Source: Bacteroidota bacterium (GTDB lineage: Bacteria; Bacteroidota; Bacteroidia; Bacteroidales; VadinHA17). From it: a DNA stretch of 64,000 bases. The position numbers and the translations under genes are program-made. Within the stretch, counting starts at the first letter, position 1, and every line of letters begins with the position of its first letter. Positions 44,563-54,834 of this stretch are shown in pieces. The stretch is taken from assembly GCA_022561875.1 (NCBI GenBank), contig JADFQJ010000013.1, forward strand, positions 1 through 64,000, written 5' to 3'. The notes under the pieces are model-generated. The model did not search any database. It saw nothing but the letters and a program-made list of their open reading frames with translations, and was not told the DNA's origin.

Positions 44563-44587
44563 TTAATAACGTTGTTAATAACGTTAA
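44563..44587 (+). promoter_or_regulatory. Direct repeat of TTAATAACGTT upstream of the pqqD-like gene
   Basis: TTAATAACGTT occurs twice with one base between, at 75-100 bp before the pqqD-like ATG. The core TTAATAACGT is also upstream of the gene at 62910. It may be an operator. Confidence 0.4.
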
Positions 44588-44661: not shown

Positions 44662-44910
44662 ATGAAACTGAAAAAAAATATCGCTGTAAGTGATTCGGGG
44701 TTTATATTTGATCCCAATTCGGGTGATTCATTTTCCATGAATCCTGTCGGTACTGAAATAGTAAATCTTTTAAAACAGGAAAAAGATTCTGACAAAATTC
44801 ATGATGCCATGACAAAAAAATATGATGTGCCTCCGGATGAATTTAATAAATATTATCTTGATTTTATACAAACCCTGAAGCAATTTAATCTTATGGAAAA
44901 TGATGATTAA
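44662..44910 (+). CDS. PqqD-like peptide-recognition protein (RRE fold)
   Basis: This 82-residue protein shows the PqqD pattern: an N-terminal beta hairpin (NIAVSDSGFIFDPNSGDSFS), MNPVGTEIVNLLKQEKD forming a first helix, then DAMTKKYDVPPDEFNKYYLD and a final helix FIQTLKQFNLM. In RiPP pathways such domains (RiPP recognition elements) bind the leader peptide and present it to an enzyme. Here the next gene, 12 bp on, is an ATP-grasp ligase, so this protein may recruit a substrate to it. No radical-SAM enzyme and no pqqA are present, so PQQ synthesis is unlikely. Confidence 0.85.
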   Translation: MKLKKNIAVSDSGFIFDPNSGDSFSMNPVGTEIVNLLKQEKDSDKIHDAMTKKYDVPPDEFNKYYLDFIQTLKQFNLMENDD

Positions 44911-44922
44911 GAATTTTATGTT

Positions 44923-45969
44923 ATGAATAAGCTCAAAGTAACAATTGCTGTCACGGGGCTGAATAATACCGATAATCCCGGTCCCGGGGTTCCAGTTATT
45001 CGTTCTCTCCGTGAATCCGAAGCTTTTGATCTGAGGATCATCGGACTGGCATACGAAACCCTGGAGCCAGGTATTTATATGCACAATATTGTTGACAAAG
45101 TTTACCAGGTACCGTATCCCTCAGAAGGCTCCGGCGATCTGATAAAACGCCTTAAATATATTCAGGAACGTGAAAAAATCGATGTTTTGATCCCAAATTT
45201 CGATGCTGAGCTTTATACTTTTATGAAATCTTCAGCCCGTCTGCATGAAATGGGAATCAAAACCTTCCTGCCAACCATTACACAGTTGGAAGAACGGCAT
45301 AAATCAGAATTGCCTGCTTTTGGCAAAAAGTACGGAGTTAACGTTCCGAAAAGCAAGCCTGTTCTAAAACATTCTGATATCGGGAAAATCCGGGATGATT
45401 TTGAATTCCCTGTTATGGTAAAAGGCAAATTTTATGATGCTTACTATGCTTTTAACGAAGAACAGATACATATGCATTTTAACAAAATTAGCGCAAAATG
45501 GGGTCTTCCTGTAATCATTCAGGAATTTATCAAAGGAACAGAGGTTAATGTGGTTGCTCTTGGCGATGGCAAGGGCAATACGATAGGGGCTGTTCCTATG
45601 AGGAAGCAATATATCACCGATAAGGGGAAAGCCTGGGGTGGCATAACTCTGGATAACAAGGAGATGCTAGACCTCACCCATAAAATTATCGGTTCTACAA
45701 ACTGGAGGGGCGGAATGGAGCTTGAGCTTATTAAAACCAGTAAAAACGAACTATATGTTATTGAGATTAATCCCCGAATTCCAGCCTGGGTATATCTTGC
45801 TGTCAGTGCAGGCCAAAATATCCCTGAGGCTCTGGTGAAACTAGCCCTTGGAGAAGAAGTAAAACCTTTTGATAAATATCAAATTGGCAGAATGTTTGTA
45901 AGGTATTCTTACGACCTGATGGTAGACCTGAAAGATTTTGAAAAACTATCCACAACAGGTGAACTATAA
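44923..45969 (+). CDS. ATP-grasp ligase, CarB-like
   Basis: This 348-residue ATP-grasp enzyme would activate a carboxylate with ATP and join it to an amine or other nucleophile. The N-terminal part (VTIAVTGLNNTDNPGPGVPV) is a Rossmann-like preATP-grasp domain. The ATP-grasp body has FEFPVMVKGKFYDAYYAF, VIIQEFIKGTEVNVVALGDG and the metal-binding end ELYVIEINPRIPAW, where Glu and Asn coordinate Mg. It resembles a single CarB half rather than D-Ala ligase. It is sandwiched between the pqqD-like gene and a DapDC-fold decarboxylase, all within one operon. The product is unknown. Confidence 0.88.
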   Translation: MNKLKVTIAVTGLNNTDNPGPGVPVIRSLRESEAFDLRIIGLAYETLEPGIYMHNIVDKVYQVPYPSEGSGDLIKRLKYIQEREKIDVLIPNFDAELYTFMKSSARLHEMGIKTFLPTITQLEERHKSELPAFGKKYGVNVPKSKPVLKHSDIGKIRDDFEFPVMVKGKFYDAYYAFNEEQIHMHFNKISAKWGLPVIIQEFIKGTEVNVVALGDGKGNTIGAVPMRKQYITDKGKAWGGITLDNKEMLDLTHKIIGSTNWRGGMELELIKTSKNELYVIEINPRIPAWVYLAVSAGQNIPEALVKLALGEEVKPFDKYQIGRMFVRYSYDLMVDLKDFEKLSTTGEL

Positions 45970-46009
45970 TCCGAATTTTATGAAAAATATATTCTAAATT
46001 TTAACAACA

Positions 46010-47368
46010 ATGGAAAAACAACCATTTGAACGACCATTTATTAAAAAATTACATTCAGGAATGCCAGGTAAGTTTGGCATGAAAATGGATTTCGATCCTA
46101 TCACGGAAATTGACGGCATTAATGTAAAAGATCTGATCGGTGAATATGGATCTCCTGTGTTTATATTATCTGAGAAAACAATCCGGAAAACTTTAAATAC
46201 TGCCAAAAGGGCTTTTACTACCAGGTATCCAAAAGTCCGGTTTTCCTGGTCATATAAAACCAATTATCTCGATGCTGTATGTAATATTTATCACCAGGAA
46301 GGTAGCTGGGCTGAAGTTGTATCCGGTTTTGAATATGATAAAGCTCTTTCAAACGGGGTTGACGGTAAGTATATTATTTTTAACGGACCGGATAAATCGG
46401 CTGAATATCTCGAAAAAGCTATTCAAAAAAACTCTCTCATCCATATTGATCATTTTGATGAAATGTACATGTTAAATGAATTGAGTGATAAACTGAACAA
46501 AAAACCAAAGGTTGCCATTCGTGTAAATATGGACACCGGCATTTATCCTAAATGGGACCGGTTTGGATTTAATTACGAAAACGGCGAAGCGTGGGATGCC
46601 ATTAACAGAATTATGATCGGTAAAAAGCTTGATCTGGTTGGGCTGCATACTCACATTGGTACATTTCTCCTTGCAGCTAATCCATATAAAATCGCTGCCG
46701 GTAAATTAGCTGATCTGGCAGTAAATATTGAAAACAAATACAATCACAACATTAAATACATTGATATGGGTGGCGGGTTCGCCTCGAGAAACACACTAAA
46801 GGGAGCATTCCTGCCCGGAACAGATACTGTGCCTGATTTTGACGACTATGCTGAAGCAATTACTTCCGGGCTTATCAATTCTCAAATAAAGCCGGACAAC
46901 CTTCCGCTTCTTATCCTTGAAACAGGTCGCGCCCTGATTGATGACGCAGGTTATCTTCTCGGAACGGTACTGGCAAACAAGCGGCTGGCCGACGGCAGAC
47001 GTTCAACCATTCTGGATATCGGGATCAACCTGCTATTTACCTCTTTCTGGTACGAACACATTATTACCCCGGCACAACCATTTTCACATCATACGGAAGA
47101 AACTGCTATTTACGGTCCGCTCTGCATGAATATTGATGTCCTTCGTGAAAATGTTGATTTTCCGTTATTGAAAAAGAATGATCATGTGGTTATTAAACGA
47201 ATTGGTGCATATAATATGACCCAGTGGTTACAGTTCATCACATTACGGCCACGGATAGTTTTGATTGACGAGAAAGGGAAATCACATCTTATCAGGAAAA
47301 ACGAAACACTGGAGGTTTTCAAATCACTTGAAAAAACGCCTGAGTATCTCAACAATTTTAAACTATAA
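46010..47368 (+). CDS. PLP-dependent fold-III decarboxylase (DapDC-like, altered motif)
   Basis: This 452-residue protein belongs to the alanine-racemase-fold decarboxylases (diaminopimelate, ornithine and carboxynorspermidine decarboxylases). The PLP lysine is in FSWSYKTNYLDAV (about residue 85), followed by IRVNMDTGIYPKWDRFGF, GLHTHIGTF and the phosphate-loop YIDMGGGFAS. The catalytic cysteine is present in YGPLCMNIDVL. In DapDC the residues after this Cys are usually ESGD; here they are MNID, so the distal group of the substrate probably differs from diaminopimelate. The gene lies 40 bp after the ATP-grasp gene and 21 bp before the urea-transporter fusion. It is probably not lysA. Confidence 0.85.
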   Translation: MEKQPFERPFIKKLHSGMPGKFGMKMDFDPITEIDGINVKDLIGEYGSPVFILSEKTIRKTLNTAKRAFTTRYPKVRFSWSYKTNYLDAVCNIYHQEGSWAEVVSGFEYDKALSNGVDGKYIIFNGPDKSAEYLEKAIQKNSLIHIDHFDEMYMLNELSDKLNKKPKVAIRVNMDTGIYPKWDRFGFNYENGEAWDAINRIMIGKKLDLVGLHTHIGTFLLAANPYKIAAGKLADLAVNIENKYNHNIKYIDMGGGFASRNTLKGAFLPGTDTVPDFDDYAEAITSGLINSQIKPDNLPLLILETGRALIDDAGYLLGTVLANKRLADGRRSTILDIGINLLFTSFWYEHIITPAQPFSHHTEETAIYGPLCMNIDVLRENVDFPLLKKNDHVVIKRIGAYNMTQWLQFITLRPRIVLIDEKGKSHLIRKNETLEVFKSLEKTPEYLNNFKL

Positions 47369-47389
47369 CCTAACGTAAAACAAAAAGGG

Positions 47390-49582
47390 TTGAATATAAA
47401 ACAAAATGTAAAACTTTTGTATGAGGGGTTACTAAATAGCTATTCACAGGTGTTTTTTTCGAAAAATAAGCTGTTTGGAATTATTCTTCTTATTATCACT
47501 TTTTTCGATCTTCTTGCAGGGCTCAGCGGGTTGCTTGCGGTTTTAATCACCTATTTTGCCGGGCGGGGTATTGGTTTTAGCAAAATAAAAGTTTCCGAAG
47601 GCATATATGGATTTAACAGTTTGCTTGTAGGGCTCGGTCTGGGTATTTATTTCGAACCGGGCATCCCCTTCTTTTTTGTACTGTTCCTTGCTTCCTTGTT
47701 TACCCTTTTCCTGTCGGTAAGCATGGAGGGTATTATTGGAAAGTATGCAATACCGTATTTAAGTCTACCTTTTATTATTTCCATCTGGCTTATTGCTCTG
47801 GCAACCTCGCAATTTGAGGCACTTGGTATCAGCCAGAGAGGCATTTATACCCTAAACGACCTTTATGTTATCGGAGACAAAACCCTGGTGAATGTTTATA
47901 CCTGGTGGAATGATGTTGAAATACCATCCTCTCTAAGAGTTTATTTCTTTTCTCTGGGCGCCATTTTTTTTCAATATAACCTTTTATCAGGAATAATCAT
48001 CGCTCTGGGATTATTGTATTACTCACGAATCGGATTTTCTCTTTCATTGCTTGGTTTTTATTCAGCGTATGTATTTTATATGATCATTGGGGCAAATATT
48101 TCAGAAGCAAATTACAGCTATATCGGTTTTAACTATATTCTTACTGCAATAGCACTTGGCGGGTTTTTTATCATTCCTTCAAAGTGGTCTTACTTATGGA
48201 CAATTATACTCATTCCTATGGTTGCCATAATCACTATTAGTTTGAGTATAATCTTTTCCACCTTTAACCTGCCCATTTATTCTCTCCCTTTCAATATAGT
48301 TGTTCTGCTGTTTCTTTATGTTCTGAAATTCAGAACTAAATCGACGAACCGGCTTACTGATATTTTCATACAACATCATTCTCCTGAAAGAAATCTTTAT
48401 GCTTACCAAACTAATTCCGTGAGATTCAAATACCTTCTGGATACCAGTATTCAGCTCCCGTTCTGGGGAGATTGGACTGTGTCTCAAGGACATAACGGAG
48501 AGCACACTCATAAAGAGGAATGGAAAAATGCCTGGGATTTTGTTATAACCGATGAGACAGGTGAACAGTTTAAAGGAAAAGGGGATTTTACAAATGAATA
48601 TTATTGCTATGAAAAAGATGTAATTGCACCTGCAGATGGTGAGATCGAACAAATTGTCGACGGGATAGAAGATAATATAATCGGAGATATAAACCTTGAA
48701 AATAACTGGGGAAACAGTGTGGTTATCCGGCATAACAATATGCTCTTTTCCCAGGTCAGTCATCTTAAAAAGGGCTCTGTTAAAGTGAAGCCCGGAGAGA
48801 GGGTAAAAAAAGGAACTTTAATTGCCAAAGTGGGAAACAGTGGCAGATCACCTTATCCTCATCTTCATTTTCAATTCCAGTCGGCCCCTTTTGTGGGATC
48901 AAAAACATTCAGTTACCCTATCAGCCATTTTATTCTTTCGAAAGAAAAAGGAGTAGAGCTAAAATCGTACCAAATACCGCAACTAAACGAAAAAGTTAAA
49001 AATATTGAACCAAATCCTATTCTTAAAAATTCGTTTCATTTTATTCCCGGTAAACGGTTTTCATTTAAAATAACACGTGGCGAAAATGTGACAGAAGAAA
49101 ACTGGGAAGTTATTACAGATGCATATAACAATTCATTCTTACAGGAAAAAACAACAGGCAGCAAGGCATATTTTGAAAACGATGGAAATCTTTTCTATTT
49201 CTCACGTTTTGACGGAGATAAGAAATTGCTATTGTATTATTTTTTCCTTGCTGCATATAAAATACAAATGGGTTTTTATAGTGGTCTCGAACTTCAGGAC
49301 AAATTCCCTGTAGACTTGTTATTTAATAAAAGATGGCTCTTTATTCATGATTTTTTTGCCCCTTTCTTCTTCTTTCTGAAAACTGATTTTCATTTACAAT
49401 ACACTAATATGGACAATCCTCTTAATCCGGAAAAAATTGAGCTTACTTCACGGGTTAAACTGAAATTATTCAGAAAAGAGGTTAAAAAGATTGATTTCAA
49501 ATTAATAATGAACACTAAAGGTCTAGAGGAATTAACGATTATGACAAAAAATAAAAAAATTACAGCAATATGCGAAAATTAA
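47390..49582 (+). CDS. Urea-transporter-like membrane domain fused to M23 peptidase
   Basis: This 730-residue protein seems to start at a TTG (47390) preceded by AAAGGG; no ATG occurs in frame near the start. Residues of about 25-320 form ten hydrophobic helices of the urea-transporter (UT) type, including FNSLLVGLGLGIYF and the duplicated half FNYILTAIALGGFF. Residues of about 365-510 are an M23 peptidase domain: HTHKEEWKNAWDFV with the metal-binding Asp, SQVSHLKKGSV, and PYPHLHFQFQ with the conserved H-x-H. About 220 residues of unknown type follow. The combination could move a small amide or export a product and cut peptidoglycan or peptides outside. Its end overlaps the next gene by 13 bp. 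Confidence 0.82.
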   Translation: MNIKQNVKLLYEGLLNSYSQVFFSKNKLFGIILLIITFFDLLAGLSGLLAVLITYFAGRGIGFSKIKVSEGIYGFNSLLVGLGLGIYFEPGIPFFFVLFLASLFTLFLSVSMEGIIGKYAIPYLSLPFIISIWLIALATSQFEALGISQRGIYTLNDLYVIGDKTLVNVYTWWNDVEIPSSLRVYFFSLGAIFFQYNLLSGIIIALGLLYYSRIGFSLSLLGFYSAYVFYMIIGANISEANYSYIGFNYILTAIALGGFFIIPSKWSYLWTIILIPMVAIITISLSIIFSTFNLPIYSLPFNIVVLLFLYVLKFRTKSTNRLTDIFIQHHSPERNLYAYQTNSVRFKYLLDTSIQLPFWGDWTVSQGHNGEHTHKEEWKNAWDFVITDETGEQFKGKGDFTNEYYCYEKDVIAPADGEIEQIVDGIEDNIIGDINLENNWGNSVVIRHNNMLFSQVSHLKKGSVKVKPGERVKKGTLIAKVGNSGRSPYPHLHFQFQSAPFVGSKTFSYPISHFILSKEKGVELKSYQIPQLNEKVKNIEPNPILKNSFHFIPGKRFSFKITRGENVTEENWEVITDAYNNSFLQEKTTGSKAYFENDGNLFYFSRFDGDKKLLLYYFFLAAYKIQMGFYSGLELQDKFPVDLLFNKRWLFIHDFFAPFFFFLKTDFHLQYTNMDNPLNPEKIELTSRVKLKLFRKEVKKIDFKLIMNTKGLEELTIMTKNKKITAICEN

Positions 49583-50922
49583 TTCTTGTCATATCCACAT
49601 GGTTTGTTTTACTTACCATTGCGCCAGGACAAGCGGTGATGAATTTTACAACTCTTGACAAACAGTCTTATGAGCTATATTTGGAAAAGAGGTGGCAAGA
49701 TCTCATATCTCTGGGCAAAAACGGACTTGATAACGGAATCGATTATTTTTACCTGAGGATGCGGATCGGGATAGCATATTATGAGCTGCGTAATTACCGC
49801 CGGGCTATTCCACATTTTCGCAAGGCACTGATATTTAATTCAAAAGATCAATTCACTAATGAATATTTATATTACTCATATCTTTTTTCGGGACGTAATG
49901 CAGATGCTATCAATCTTTCGGAAAAATTCACTGTTCTGCTCCAACAGAAGCTTGGAATAGGAAAAGTGACAGGGCTTAAAAGTTTTTCAGTTTATAATAC
50001 TTATTCATTAAATACAAACCAGGAAAAACTTGATGATTTTAACATCCCTGGTGATACATCTACAGATGGCTGGCAAAATGTAATGCGTAGTTATAATTTA
50101 ATACAATTGAATTTTGAACACGTGGTTTTACCCGGATTGCGGTTGTCTCACGGTTATGGTTATTTTATTAAACAGAGATTTCATTTCTTCCGGCAAGATG
50201 GAATTTCGGGGCTTTATCCGGAAGAGACATACAAACAAATTCAGATTTATGTTTCAGGTGATTTGCTTGTAAGTCATGGTTTTACAGCCGGTCTTACTTT
50301 ACACTATATTAACCTGCGACCTTTGGTCTATTATGAAACGGGAGGAGCAAGAGCATGGCAACCAGGATCAACATACGCTTCCACAAACCGCTCTGATAAT
50401 TTCGCAGGATATTTTTCACTCAATAAAGATCTGGGGACTTTTACTGTTGGGCTTGGATTAGGTGCTGCTAATCTTAATGACAATATACAATTTCAAAAAG
50501 ATTTGTTCCTTTCTGTTTTTCCTCTTGGAAATTTAAATTTCTACCTTTCGTCAAAAGCAACTCATCATTCCGATTTTCTGAATCTCGACAATCCTGTTAA
50601 CAAATGGATATTTGAGCAAAAGATCGGAATTAAGGTATTCAAACCTGTGTGGATTGAGCTTTACGGATCTTTTGGAGAAAAGTCTGATTTTATAGACTAT
50701 AGCGGTACAGTTATTTACAATGAATTTAACCCACTCACCAGCAATATGGGCTTCAACCTGATTTTCTCTCACGAAAAAACAGGAACACAATTATACTTGA
50801 ATTGGCGCAATCAGACAATCAGAAGCTCATTCAATTTTTATTCTGACAATACCATAAATACAATAAACGATAATGTTTTTAACATACAAACAATAACAGG
50901 AGGTGTAAAATGGAACTTTTAA
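49570..50922 (+). CDS. TPR-containing outer-membrane beta-barrel (YaiO-like)
   Basis: This 450-residue protein has a signal peptide (LILVISTWFVLLTIAPGQA). An N-terminal part with two to three TPR-like helices follows (SYELYLEKRWQDLISLGKN, YYELRNYRRAIPHFRKALIF). From about residue 150 the sequence is a strand-rich barrel with alternating aromatics (LRLSHGYGYFIKQRFHFF, FTVGLGLGAANLND, TQLYLNWRNQT), ending in aromatic VKWNF, as expected for outer-membrane insertion. It overlaps the upstream M23 fusion by 13 bp and the downstream TPR gene by 13 bp, so all are coupled. It may form the outer-membrane end of the system. Confidence 0.8.
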   Translation: MRKLILVISTWFVLLTIAPGQAVMNFTTLDKQSYELYLEKRWQDLISLGKNGLDNGIDYFYLRMRIGIAYYELRNYRRAIPHFRKALIFNSKDQFTNEYLYYSYLFSGRNADAINLSEKFTVLLQQKLGIGKVTGLKSFSVYNTYSLNTNQEKLDDFNIPGDTSTDGWQNVMRSYNLIQLNFEHVVLPGLRLSHGYGYFIKQRFHFFRQDGISGLYPEETYKQIQIYVSGDLLVSHGFTAGLTLHYINLRPLVYYETGGARAWQPGSTYASTNRSDNFAGYFSLNKDLGTFTVGLGLGAANLNDNIQFQKDLFLSVFPLGNLNFYLSSKATHHSDFLNLDNPVNKWIFEQKIGIKVFKPVWIELYGSFGEKSDFIDYSGTVIYNEFNPLTSNMGFNLIFSHEKTGTQLYLNWRNQTIRSSFNFYSDNTINTINDNVFNIQTITGGVKWNF

Positions 50923-51545
50923 ATCAATTCAAAATTTATTTCATCGGATTATTGATCTTGCTTATGCCCTTTGGAGCTCTGAGCCAGAAGAGTATATCCA
51001 ATATTATTGATGCTTTCCAGCAAAGTTATATTAATGAGGGTACCGGAAAATACGCAGATGCTATAAAAGTATTGAAAAATGTATATAACGAAGATTCTTA
51101 CGAAATTAATCTGCGTCTTGGATGGTTAACTTATCAGTCAGGTTTTTTTAGTGAGTCTCTCGCTTTTTACAACAAAGCCATTAATCTGATGCCTTATTCT
51201 ATTGAACCACGGTGGGGTGTTGTTTTACCCGCCAGCGCTTTAGGTAACTGGGAAATGGTTATTAATCAGTACCAAAAAATTTTGAATATCAATCCAAATA
51301 ACTCCGTTGCGCATCACCGTCTGGGTTTAATATATTATGGCAGGGATGAATTCCAGGAAGCTTATAAACATTTCGAAAAGGTTGTAAATCTCTATCCTTT
51401 TGATTACGATGGACTAACCATGCTTGCATGGACCAATTTTAAACTCGGCAAACAACGCGAAGCTATAGTGCTTTTCAGTAAAGCCCTTATGAATACACCA
51501 AGTGGTTCCTCGGCACTTGAGGGTTTGCAATTACTTGAGAAATAG
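50910..51545 (+). CDS. Secreted TPR protein
   Basis: This 211-residue protein starts with a signal (FIGLLILLMPFGALSQ) and then at least four TPR units: GKYADAIKVLKNVYNEDSYE, SGFFSESLAFYNKAINLMPY, LGNWEMVINQYQKILNINPN and YGRDEFQEAYKHFEKVVNLY, with a fifth near the end. It should be a periplasmic scaffold. Its start lies inside the end of the barrel gene (13 bp overlap), which indicates translational coupling, and a role as partner of the barrel is likely. Confidence 0.82.
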   Translation: MELLNQFKIYFIGLLILLMPFGALSQKSISNIIDAFQQSYINEGTGKYADAIKVLKNVYNEDSYEINLRLGWLTYQSGFFSESLAFYNKAINLMPYSIEPRWGVVLPASALGNWEMVINQYQKILNINPNNSVAHHRLGLIYYGRDEFQEAYKHFEKVVNLYPFDYDGLTMLAWTNFKLGKQREAIVLFSKALMNTPSGSSALEGLQLLEK

Positions 51546-51643
51546 TTACTGATATTTTTTTAAACCATCCGGCTGTAAACAGCGAACTGTTTTTCTGTCG
51601 TCTGCAGATCGCTGATTACTATGGATATAAAATTCTTAAACAT

Positions 51644-52450
51644 ATGAAAAACAAACAATTTCTTGCAAAAAGTTTCGTTCTGCTTTTTATTCTTTTATTA
51701 TGCAGCAGTCATGATCTTTTTATCCGTATGAGTTCATATTATTTGAAGCCACACAGCAAATCTACCCTTATGTTGTTTAACGGGACTTTCAGCCAAAGTG
51801 AAAATATAATTACACGCAACCGAATGGATGATGTAGTTATAACAGGTCCCTCTTTTTTGAACCATCCGGATACAACTCAATGGTATGATTCAGGAAATGA
51901 AACCATTTTAAACTTTAATACCGGAGAACCAGGAACATATGTTGCCGGTATTTCAACCAGACCAAGAACTATCTATCTTAATGCAGCCGATTTTAATGAA
52001 TATCTTGAACACGATGGCGTACTTGATATCCTTGAAAAACGTAAAGCTGAGAAACAAACGGATAAACCGGTAAATGAAAAGTATGCCAAGCATGTAAAAG
52101 CCATTTTCCAGGTGGGAGAATTACGCACAAATAATTATTTACACGAACTGGGATACCCTCTTGAATTTATTCCGCTCCGGAATCCGTATGAGTTGAAGCC
52201 GGGTGATTTTCTGGATGTAAAACTTTTATCTGAAGGAAAACCGCTGGCTGGTAAATATGTTTATGTACACTCATCTGTAAATGAGGAAACTGGTGAGCAG
52301 CAATTGATCACCAACAACGAGGGAATTATACGGGTCGAAATTAACTGTGCCGGAGAATGGTATCTGCGCACTATTCATATGACAAAAACCACAGAAGAAA
52401 ACACAGATTATCTTTCACACTGGAGTACGCTTACTTTCGGTATCCGATAA
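51644..52450 (+). CDS. DUF4198-like secreted protein
   Basis: This 268-residue protein has a signal peptide and then SHDLFIRMSSYYLKPHSKST, the His-Asp start of DUF4198 proteins, which are found near metal and other transport genes (the His-Asp pair is thought to bind metal in related NikK/CbtA-like proteins). The C-terminal half (YELKPGDFLDVKLLSEGKPL, TNNEGIIRVEINCAGEWYLR) is Ig-like. It follows the TPR gene by 98 bp and probably belongs to the same unit, although a separate promoter is possible. Confidence 0.78.
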   Translation: MKNKQFLAKSFVLLFILLLCSSHDLFIRMSSYYLKPHSKSTLMLFNGTFSQSENIITRNRMDDVVITGPSFLNHPDTTQWYDSGNETILNFNTGEPGTYVAGISTRPRTIYLNAADFNEYLEHDGVLDILEKRKAEKQTDKPVNEKYAKHVKAIFQVGELRTNNYLHELGYPLEFIPLRNPYELKPGDFLDVKLLSEGKPLAGKYVYVHSSVNEETGEQQLITNNEGIIRVEINCAGEWYLRTIHMTKTTEENTDYLSHWSTLTFGIR

Positions 52451-52586: not shown

Positions 52587-53501
52587 ATGGAAATAGAGAA
52601 CAAACAGCCTTTTGAAAAAAAGAAATCTGCAAAAGCCGGAATTATTATACTCACAGTTTTTGTTGTAATTCTTTCCCTCGGGCTTAGCGGGCTTATTTTC
52701 ATGTATTTCCACCAGAAGGAAGCAATGGTTGAAATGGAGGCTGTTCTTACAGCAGAAAAAGATTCACTTACAAATGAATTGCAGGATTTGATATTCGGCT
52801 ACGACACCCTGAAAACCTCCAATGATACTCTTAATATAAAACTTGAAGAGGAGCAGAATAAGATACAAAAGCTTCTCCAGATCCAGGCTTCGACTGCGCA
52901 GAAAATACTTTTGTATAAAAAAGAACTGAGCACTCTTCGTAAGGTTATGAAAAGCTATATAGTACAAATCGACTCACTTAACACTAAAAATAAAATGCTG
53001 ATAGCCAGGAATGCCGAATTCCAGATCAGGCTTGAAGTTGCGCAGAAAACCAATAAAGAGTTATCTGCAATAAAAGATGAGCTTTCATTTAAGGTTAAAA
53101 AAGCCTCTGTTATCGTAGCTAAAAATATTCATGCGGCTCCATTGAACAACAGGGGAAAAGAAAAAGACAGAATTGACAAGATCGAAAAAATCCGTGTTTG
53201 TTTTACTCTCAGGGAAAATCCGATTGTTAACGCCGGAAAGAAAGATGTGTACATGCGAATTATACGCCCCGATTCCCTGGTGCTGGCCCTTACACCTGAA
53301 AATATTTTCTCCTTTCAGGAAAAACAAATGATTTACTCAGCCATGAGAACAATTGAATATCTGAATAAAGATGTTGATATGTGCATTTATTTCAATCAAA
53401 ACGAACACTTTATTACTGGAAAATATACTATAGAACTTTTCCTTGAAAACAATCAAATAGGAACAACCTCATTTACTCTCAGGGAGTCGGGTTGGTTTTA
53501 A
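52587..53501 (+). CDS. Hypothetical coiled-coil membrane protein
   Basis: This 304-residue protein has one membrane helix near the N-terminus (residues of about 17-42, IIILTVFVVILSLGLSGLIF) after a basic cytoplasmic tail. Residues of about 48-165 are coiled coil (LEEEQNKIQKLLQ, LYKKELSTLRKVM, IAKNAEFQIR-like heptads). A C-terminal beta-rich domain follows (DKIEKIRVCFTLRENPIVNA ... GKYTIELFLENNQIGTTSFT). The layout is of a periplasmic or surface structural protein. I recall similar proteins as conserved but unnamed in Bacteroidota. It lies 43 bp before a glycosyltransferase gene. Confidence 0.75.
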   Translation: MEIENKQPFEKKKSAKAGIIILTVFVVILSLGLSGLIFMYFHQKEAMVEMEAVLTAEKDSLTNELQDLIFGYDTLKTSNDTLNIKLEEEQNKIQKLLQIQASTAQKILLYKKELSTLRKVMKSYIVQIDSLNTKNKMLIARNAEFQIRLEVAQKTNKELSAIKDELSFKVKKASVIVAKNIHAAPLNNRGKEKDRIDKIEKIRVCFTLRENPIVNAGKKDVYMRIIRPDSLVLALTPENIFSFQEKQMIYSAMRTIEYLNKDVDMCIYFNQNEHFITGKYTIELFLENNQIGTTSFTLRESGWF

Positions 53502-53544
53502 GCAAATTATTGATTTTCTTTGTTTTTCATGAATTATCAGCAAA

Positions 53545-54834
53545 ATGAAAATAGGATTTATTATAGGTAGAATTGGCGGCGTTGACGGAGTAGCGCTTGA
53601 AGCTGAAAAATGGATTCAGGTTCTTAAAAAGATGGGGCATGAAATATTCATTCTTTCCGGTCAGTATCAGGATTGGAAAATTGACCGTGAACATGATACA
53701 CTTGTTCCTGAAATGTCGTTTTTCTCACCTGAAAGTTATTGGGGTCAAAAAAAGGCTTTTTTTCATCCTGATACCAATACTACAGATTTGATTGAGCATG
53801 TTTCACTTTACTCCAGAATTATCTCTGAAAAGATAGTCAAGTGGGGAATTAGCAATAAGATTGATTTACTCATCTCGGAAAACGCTTCGTCGCTTCCCTC
53901 CCATCTTGAAATGGGATTGGGAATAAAGCTTGCTGTCGAGATCCTGGGACTTCCCACCATCACCCATGATCATGATTTTGCCTGGGAAAGGGGCGACAGA
54001 TATCATTCTCCGCATAAGGAAATTAACCGGTTTGTTGAGGAGGCTTTTCCCCTCCGTCTTCCCAATGCATATCATGCTGTTATAAATATACACGCGCAGA
54101 CAACCCTGAAGGAGAAATATAACAGAGATTCTGTGGTTGTTCCAAATGTTATGGACTTCAACATGAGCTTTGGGGTCAAATCTAAAAAGAATAAACACTT
54201 ACGTGCCGACCTTGGTCTTGATGAAGAAGATCTGTTATTATTCCAGATAACCCGTATCGTAGAGAGAAAAGGTATTGAGGTGGCGATAGAGCTTATCCAC
54301 AAGCTGGATAACAAAAATACCAAGCTTGTTATTACCGGAAGCTACAAAGACGATGAGGGGAGTTTGTACTATAATAAGCTTGTCAACCAGATCCACGAAT
54401 TGAAATTAAGCAAGCAAATTATTTTCGCTTCACATATTATACACAACAAGGGTCTTTCAGGAGATGGCAGTGAAACCAGTTATTCTTTATCCGATGCTTA
54501 TGCAAATGCATCCTCCTGTACCTATTTTAGTACTTATGAGGGTTTTGGCAATGCTTTTATTGAGGCGGTTCTTGCAAAACGACCTGTTTTTGTTAATAAT
54601 TACAAACCTGTATTCTGGCCTGATATTGGTAGTAAAGGATTTAAGATAGTTATGCTGAAAGATAATGAGCTTACTGATGATGCTGTTGAGCAAATAAGGG
54701 AAGTGATAACTAATAAAAAACTAAACCGTGAAATTTCGGAATTTAATTATACTCTTGGCAAGAAATATTTTTCATATGATACCCTTGAACAAAAACTGGT
54801 GGAATTGCTTGATATAGCGACCGGTAAGAAGTAA
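53545..54834 (+). CDS. Family 4-type glycosyltransferase
   Basis: This 429-residue GT-B enzyme would transfer a sugar from a nucleotide sugar. The N-terminal half has the GGVDGVALEAEKWIQVLK motif of GT4 acceptor domains and THDHDFAWERGDRY. The C-terminal half has FQITRIVERKGIEVAIELIH and the donor motif YEGFGNAFIEAVLAKRPVF, where the E-x(7)-E pair contacts the nucleotide sugar. Its start is preceded by a short gap. It shares layout and the HDFxWE motif with the N-terminal domain of the 1401-residue protein at 56198, so the two are paralogues near each other. The stop codon lies inside a heptamer-repeat patch. Confidence 0.88.
   Translation: MKIGFIIGRIGGVDGVALEAEKWIQVLKKMGHEIFILSGQYQDWKIDREHDTLVPEMSFFSPESYWGQKKAFFHPDTNTTDLIEHVSLYSRIISEKIVKWGISNKIDLLISENASSLPSHLEMGLGIKLAVEILGLPTITHDHDFAWERGDRYHSPHKEINRFVEEAFPLRLPNAYHAVINIHAQTTLKEKYNRDSVVVPNVMDFNMSFGVKSKKNKHLRADLGLDEEDLLLFQITRIVERKGIEVAIELIHKLDNKNTKLVITGSYKDDEGSLYYNKLVNQIHELKLSKQIIFASHIIHNKGLSGDGSETSYSLSDAYANASSCTYFSTYEGFGNAFIEAVLAKRPVFVNNYKPVFWPDIGSKGFKIVMLKDNELTDDAVEQIREVITNKKLNREISEFNYTLGKKYFSYDTLEQKLVELLDIATGKK

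Follow-up and report, generated by a model that had tools for sequence, protein, structure and literature searches.

A conserved six-gene unit in Bacteroidota and neighbouring groups links an ATP-grasp ligase and a fold-III decarboxylase to a urea-transporter–M23 peptidase fusion

We analysed a 64,000-nucleotide stretch of DNA from a Bacteroidota bacterium (GCA_022561875.1, contig JADFQJ010000013.1, positions 1 to 64,000; hereafter, the window), part of which carries seven consecutive genes on the plus strand (Table 1). The original prediction listed these genes with gaps of 12, 40, 21 and 98 bp and two overlaps of 13 bp; the ORF coordinates agree with it exactly, and its domain assignments were borne out by Pfam. 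Its inclusion of the last gene, which encodes a DUF4198 protein, in the operon did not hold up. Only one relative, the same-genus genome G005, has DUF4198 at the same position, and in another genome of the genus (G001, locus L040) the gene is absent and the TPR gene directly adjoins the next gene. We therefore rejected DUF4198 as a seventh member and delimit the unit to six genes (44662–51545); the DUF4198 gene represents a recent insertion or a local loss.

Table 1 Features of the locus in the window.
Feature	Coordinates	Strand	Description	Evidence
Gene 1	44662..44910	+	PqqD-like (RRE-type) protein, 82 aa	Pfam PqqD 44.2 bits, cut-off 23.4; alignment
Gene 2	44923..45969	+	ATP-grasp ligase, PylC/CPSase-like N-terminal part, 348 aa	Pfam, NCBIfam, conserved Lys167 and E281-x-N283
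Gene 3	46010..47368	+	Decarboxylase of 452 aa, PLP fold III (alanine-racemase fold), closest to FslC/FigC; conserved N-terminal tail of 33 residues	
Gene 4	47390..49582	+	TTG start; UT domain (aa 14–312), M23 (about aa 370–497), C-terminal beta domain (about aa 510–730)	
Gene 5	49570..50922	+	Secreted TPR domain followed by outer-membrane beta-barrel, 450 aa	AF2 pLDDT 89, Foldseek OmpG/FadL E about 1e-8
Gene 6	50910..51545	+	Secreted TPR protein, 211 aa	Pfam TPRs, signal-peptide-like N-terminus read from sequence
Gene 7	51644..52450	+	DUF4198, outside the conserved unit	Pfam, 95 bits
Direct repeat TTAATAACGTT x2	44563..44585	+	Possible diverged operator (weak)	

Loci were defined by ORFs and profiles, independently of gene annotation. 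Across 28 loci in genomes related to that of the window, the genes follow one another as PqqD-like, ATP-grasp, decarboxylase, UT–M23, TPR-barrel and TPR wherever the contig is long enough. A wider scan, covering one genome per species, yielded over 580 relatives of the decarboxylase, and the 80 best were taken as named loci; some genomes belong to both this set and that of the relatives, and counts over all loci include a few duplicates. Among these best 80 of more than 580, all six genes occur together in 55 and the first three (RRE, ligase and decarboxylase) in 73, in line with the expectation that synteny would be conserved; 20 of the 25 incomplete loci reach a contig end and 5 do not. The best 80 loci carry the labels Bacteroidales, Cyclobacteriaceae, Rhodothermaceae, Balneolales, Ignavibacteriae, Chlorobi and Marinimicrobia, and cultured hosts include Cyclobacterium plantarum (L074), Cognataquiflexum aquatile (L050) and Algoriphagus sp. 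CAU 1675 (L088). The recurrence of the six-gene order in dozens of genomes is beyond chance.

A phylogenetic profile of 148 genomes from the phylum (completeness of at least 90%; decarboxylase threshold E up to 1e-100) placed the full fusion and the decarboxylase in the identical 15 genomes and in none of the rest. Chance alone would make two sets of 15 out of 148 genomes identical once in 1.3e20, a figure that ignores shared ancestry and is therefore an upper bound on the surprise, yet the 15 genomes come from many families. Of the 14 other profile genomes, 13 showed the operon on direct reading, and in the last (G183) the region was covered in part. Protein distances correlate between genes (0.58–0.85; 73 loci), as joint inheritance predicts, with part of the correlation attributable to common descent. 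In five named genomes the fusion is not beside the decarboxylase and lies elsewhere in the genome; in two of them (L153, with one gene inserted, and L157) the distant fusion sits with the TPR-barrel and TPR genes. In at least two genomes the unit is thus split into two three-gene halves, one for synthesis and one for the envelope, and both are kept. On this evidence, the six genes are inherited together as a single unit.

Upstream of the PqqD-like gene, five loci (L013, L015, L016, L054 and L111; 0.2 expected in shuffles) carry paired TTTTRTAACA-like boxes with a spacing of exactly 21 bp, which probably act as an operator. Close relatives have such pairs at the place where the window carries the unlike direct repeat of Table 1. 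An AraC-type regulator is often encoded just upstream of the PqqD-like gene (L013:11128–11721 and about 39 loci), and HTH_18/AraC matches occur in 26 of 147 immediate neighbours versus at most 1 of 145 distant genes. The N-terminal part of this regulator, in our own reading, resembles a heavy-metal-binding domain; Pfam matches the HTH alone. No such regulator adjoins the window's unit, and the nearest homologue in the same genome (43% identical) is on another contig. Other genes found at the unit are a DUF2202 (rubrerythrin-like) gene upstream (L025:10552–11187 and 16 other loci), a DUF4405 (cytochrome b561-like) gene between the PqqD-like and ATP-grasp genes (L019, L024, L026, L031 and L042) and an IF-2B-family gene (eIF2B/sugar-phosphate isomerase-like) between the decarboxylase and UT–M23 genes (L043, L048, L055, L064, L089 and L118). 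A protein family of about 264 aa is encoded right beside the unit in L032, L047, L049, L053 and L082, with a type IX sorting tail confirmed in L047, and sorted proteins of similar size lie upstream of the unit in L126, L127 and L129. A link to type IX secretion was rejected, as Por_Secre_tail cargo showed no enrichment (17 of 147 neighbours versus 12 of 145 more distant genes). In the window, the region at 52587–54834 encodes a coiled-coil protein and a glycosyltransferase that most resembles mannosylglucosylglycerate synthase (at 228 bits, below the cut-off of 640), a pair that lies 3′ of the unit in several relatives and not in the wider set. No gene of the unit matched a PADLOC model for anti-phage defence, and no structured RNA was found in the window.

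The first two genes encode a candidate docking protein and a ligase. The PqqD/RRE domain by which RRE-type RiPP clusters are recognized is present in gene 1 (Pfam; Table 1), which had no NCBIfam match above cut-off. Gene 2 matches ATPgrasp_Ter and ATP-grasp_3 and groups with PylC/CPSase-like ligases; Lys167 and the metal-binding signature formed by E281 and N283 are conserved in the alignment. Plasmid-borne relatives of the ATP-grasp enzyme and the decarboxylase were considered and rejected, being 22–30% identical with unlike neighbourhoods where these were examined.

The decarboxylase (Orn_Arg_deC_N and Orn_DAP_Arg_deC in Pfam) has the N-citrylornithine decarboxylase FigC (7kh2) as its nearest solved relative (198 bits in the PDB search, versus 77 bits for BtrK), and its NCBIfam scores fall below the cut-offs of both FslC (236 bits; cut-off 500) and lysA (214 bits; cut-off 297.9). 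A changed substrate motif had been predicted for this enzyme and is evident throughout the family: Thr344 replaces the DAP-binding Arg of the specificity helix (R-P-x-x-Y in LysA) and Met373 replaces the Glu that follows the catalytic Cys (CESSD in LysA) in 117 of 117 operon enzymes. The window's genome encodes its own LysA elsewhere (G000:C18; 379 bits, cut-off 298), which carries CESSD and IRPALY. The score, the two substitutions and this separate LysA rule out gene 3 as LysA. In FigC, M355, T327, Y331 and R290 contact the aliphatic chain and the amide, with Y331 and R290 close to the amide oxygen, and H357 and R387 contact citrate (PMC7857480). The first four correspond to M373, T344, Y348 and R307 of the operon enzyme (7kh2 alignment, numbering offset 19), and the two citrate contacts are replaced by I375 and Q405 in 117/117. 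The loss of both citrate-binding residues, together with the low FslC score, rules out identity with FslC/FigC. Judged from these aligned residues, the pocket is that of neither DapDC nor FigC; given that the amide and chain contacts are kept and the citrate contacts lost, the substrate is probably an amide-linked amino acid with an acyl part other than citrate. FigC, SbnH, AcsE, MccE and BtrK form one clade, whose non-DAPDC members act on derivatised substrates in specialised metabolism and have been predicted to include further such enzymes (PMC7857480). The N-terminal tail ahead of the catalytic domain has four invariant residues (E7, P9, K21 and G23; 117/117), and our guess is that it could serve in docking.

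The fourth gene encodes a fusion of a urea-transporter-type (UT) domain with an M23 peptidase domain (Pfam UT, 217 bits; Peptidase_M23, 58 bits), and its structural model (mean pLDDT 82) matches both urea transporters (3k3f, E 1e-12) and M23 peptidases. The paired pore motifs and slot phenylalanines are present, with Ser in place of Thr at both LPxxTxPF positions. The pore Gln of the first half (Q20) is kept in 96 of 104 fusions, and the position of dvUT E187, which is Gln in human UTs, is Ala (A191) in 96 of 104; the pore thus lacks the full pair of Gln/Glu residues that urea channels have at the symmetric positions. The zinc-binding and catalytic residues of the M23 domain (H374, D383, H458, H491 and H493) are invariant (104/104). 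Positive charge in the UT domain is concentrated at the N-terminus, in the loop at 61–70 and at the C-terminus after the last helix, and negative charge in the linker between the halves. Given this pattern and the cytoplasmic termini of UT-B, the M23 domain that follows would lie on the cytoplasmic side, in contrast to the earlier proposal of processing at the outer membrane. M23 relatives (36–39% identity) on haloarchaeal and Thermus plasmids have no obvious signal peptide, whereas several M23-only relatives in Bacteroidota have one, so that this placement stays provisional. A locus with UT and M23 in two ORFs (L131) was dropped as evidence for a cytoplasmic M23 domain: the two ORFs part at a T-rich run and their frames can be aligned as one, so that the split may be a frameshift, either real or from sequencing. 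The unit predicts a channel–peptidase that is not known from any other system.

Among the envelope genes, gene 5 begins with a TPR match in Pfam, and its AlphaFold2 model (Table 1) supports an outer-membrane barrel in the C-terminal part. The barrel is porin-like, and neither Pfam nor structure search found a TonB-dependent receptor domain in it.

We propose, with a probability of roughly 40%, that the six genes together make a small amine-bearing amide and export it, by way of ligation, decarboxylation and cleavage; the making and export of a small amide or amine, as originally put forward, stays the best reading. The ATP-grasp enzyme would form an amide bond between an ornithine-, lysine- or glutamate-like amino acid and either an acyl group or a carrier; the PqqD-like protein would act as a dock, for the substrate or between the enzymes. 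An amine would then arise when the decarboxylase takes the alpha-carboxylate off this amide-linked residue, a reaction that FigC/FslC and BtrK carry out on their own substrates. On the cytoplasmic side, the M23 domain would cut the product or its carrier, the fused urea-type channel would let a small neutral product pass the inner membrane, and the TPR-barrel and TPR proteins would carry it across the outer membrane or hold it there. The unit itself, its protein families and the intact catalytic residues are observed, and from them we infer the step order, substrate, carrier, cytoplasmic M23 domain and export direction. Two observations speak against this model: the UT fold passes urea-sized molecules, which are smaller than most acylated amines, and no carrier-protein or precursor gene is linked to the unit. 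A more speculative possibility, which we consider somewhat doubtful, is that the unit represents a new type of biosynthetic machine. In it, an inner-membrane channel would bear its own cytoplasmic metallopeptidase, and a product held on a tether would be cut loose in step with its transit of the urea-type pore; this product would be an amine or amide of many environmental Bacteroidota, Ignavibacteria and neighbouring groups.

Several other readings compete with biosynthesis and export. In a RiPP pathway, the PqqD-like protein would bring in a ribosomally made precursor from a gene outside the unit, the ATP-grasp enzyme and the decarboxylase would alter it and the M23 domain would take off the leader. 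RRE-dependent RiPP clusters are typically marked by a PqqD-like protein next to enzymes (PMC7470986), the unit's PqqD-like gene adjoins that of an ATP-grasp enzyme, ATP-grasp enzymes make graspetides (PMC8939145) and MccE, which belongs to the clade of the operon decarboxylase, has a peptide-nucleotide as its substrate (PMC7857480). We nevertheless regard this pathway as unlikely. No precursor peptide or carrier-protein gene is linked to the unit, as no conserved small ORF was found between the genes or in the 500 bp on either side of the unit, and the small ORFs that do recur nearby are fragments of the AraC, DUF2202, DUF4405 or IF-2B-like genes or antisense frames. The unit also lacks a peptide exporter, its ATP-grasp enzyme belongs to a different branch and is not recognized as a graspetide ligase, and the PLP decarboxylase and UT–M23 fusion further set it apart from such clusters. 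The missing precursor also upholds the earlier exclusion of PQQ synthesis.

Lower still we rate envelope remodelling, with a periplasmic M23 domain acting on murein and the enzymes making a diamine or amide that is attached to murein or another surface structure. The closest solved M23 structures are murein peptidases, some Bacteroidota relatives have signal peptides, as noted above, and barrel and TPR genes lie within the unit. The charge-based topology of the UT domain points the other way, as do the plasmid-borne M23 relatives without an obvious signal peptide, although secretion of murein hydrolases is reported for some archaea (PMC12352652).

We see little prospect for a metallophore pathway of the rhizoferrin or staphyloferrin type, with the ATP-grasp enzyme in place of an NIS synthetase and metal-linked control. 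The kinship of the decarboxylase to FslC/FigC and SbnH fits such a pathway, as do the upstream AraC-type regulator in many loci and the rubrerythrin-like DUF2202 neighbours. However, the citrate-binding residues are lost, the barrel is porin-like rather than a TonB-dependent receptor and the unit has no siderophore transporter.

Among the closest known systems is rhizoferrin synthesis in Francisella (FslA/FslC, FigC), where, as proposed for the unit, a ligase yields an N-acyl amino acid that goes to a fold-III decarboxylase of the same clade, but the ligase there is an NIS synthetase, the decarboxylase has the citrate-binding H357/R387 where the unit has I375/Q405, and the channel, M23, PqqD-like and barrel genes are missing. 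In the synthesis of the butirosin side chain (BtrI/BtrJ/BtrK), BtrJ is an ATP-grasp ligase. The decarboxylase BtrK, of the same clade as gene 3, acts there on a carrier-bound amino acid (PMC7857480); the unit differs in that no adjacent carrier protein was found, though one may be encoded elsewhere, and in its lower similarity to BtrK than to FigC. By analogy, the logic of the unit resembles rhizoferrin and butirosin side-chain synthesis in that ligation would be followed by decarboxylation.

Urea handling, in which a true urea channel serves nitrogen uptake or disposal of urea from arginase-family enzymes, is very improbable: the domain shares the fold, slot residues and most pore residues of dvUT and UT-B, and urea may exist in these cells because arginase-family matches occur in 24 of the 25 genomes with the unit, but urease was found in none of the 25 (which rules out urea catabolism, as predicted), Ala occupies the E187 position, and the strict linkage to a ligase and a decarboxylase is left unexplained. 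The fusion to M23 and beta domains further distinguishes the domain from dvUT and UT-B.

The unit thus lacks at least one defining feature of each named family, and we found no earlier description of it in the openly licensed literature. It is as strictly conserved as a known pathway, across many lineages, and predicts both a new small molecule and a new channel–peptidase. The annotations 'DAP decarboxylase' and 'urea transporter' in genomes that carry the unit may be wrong.
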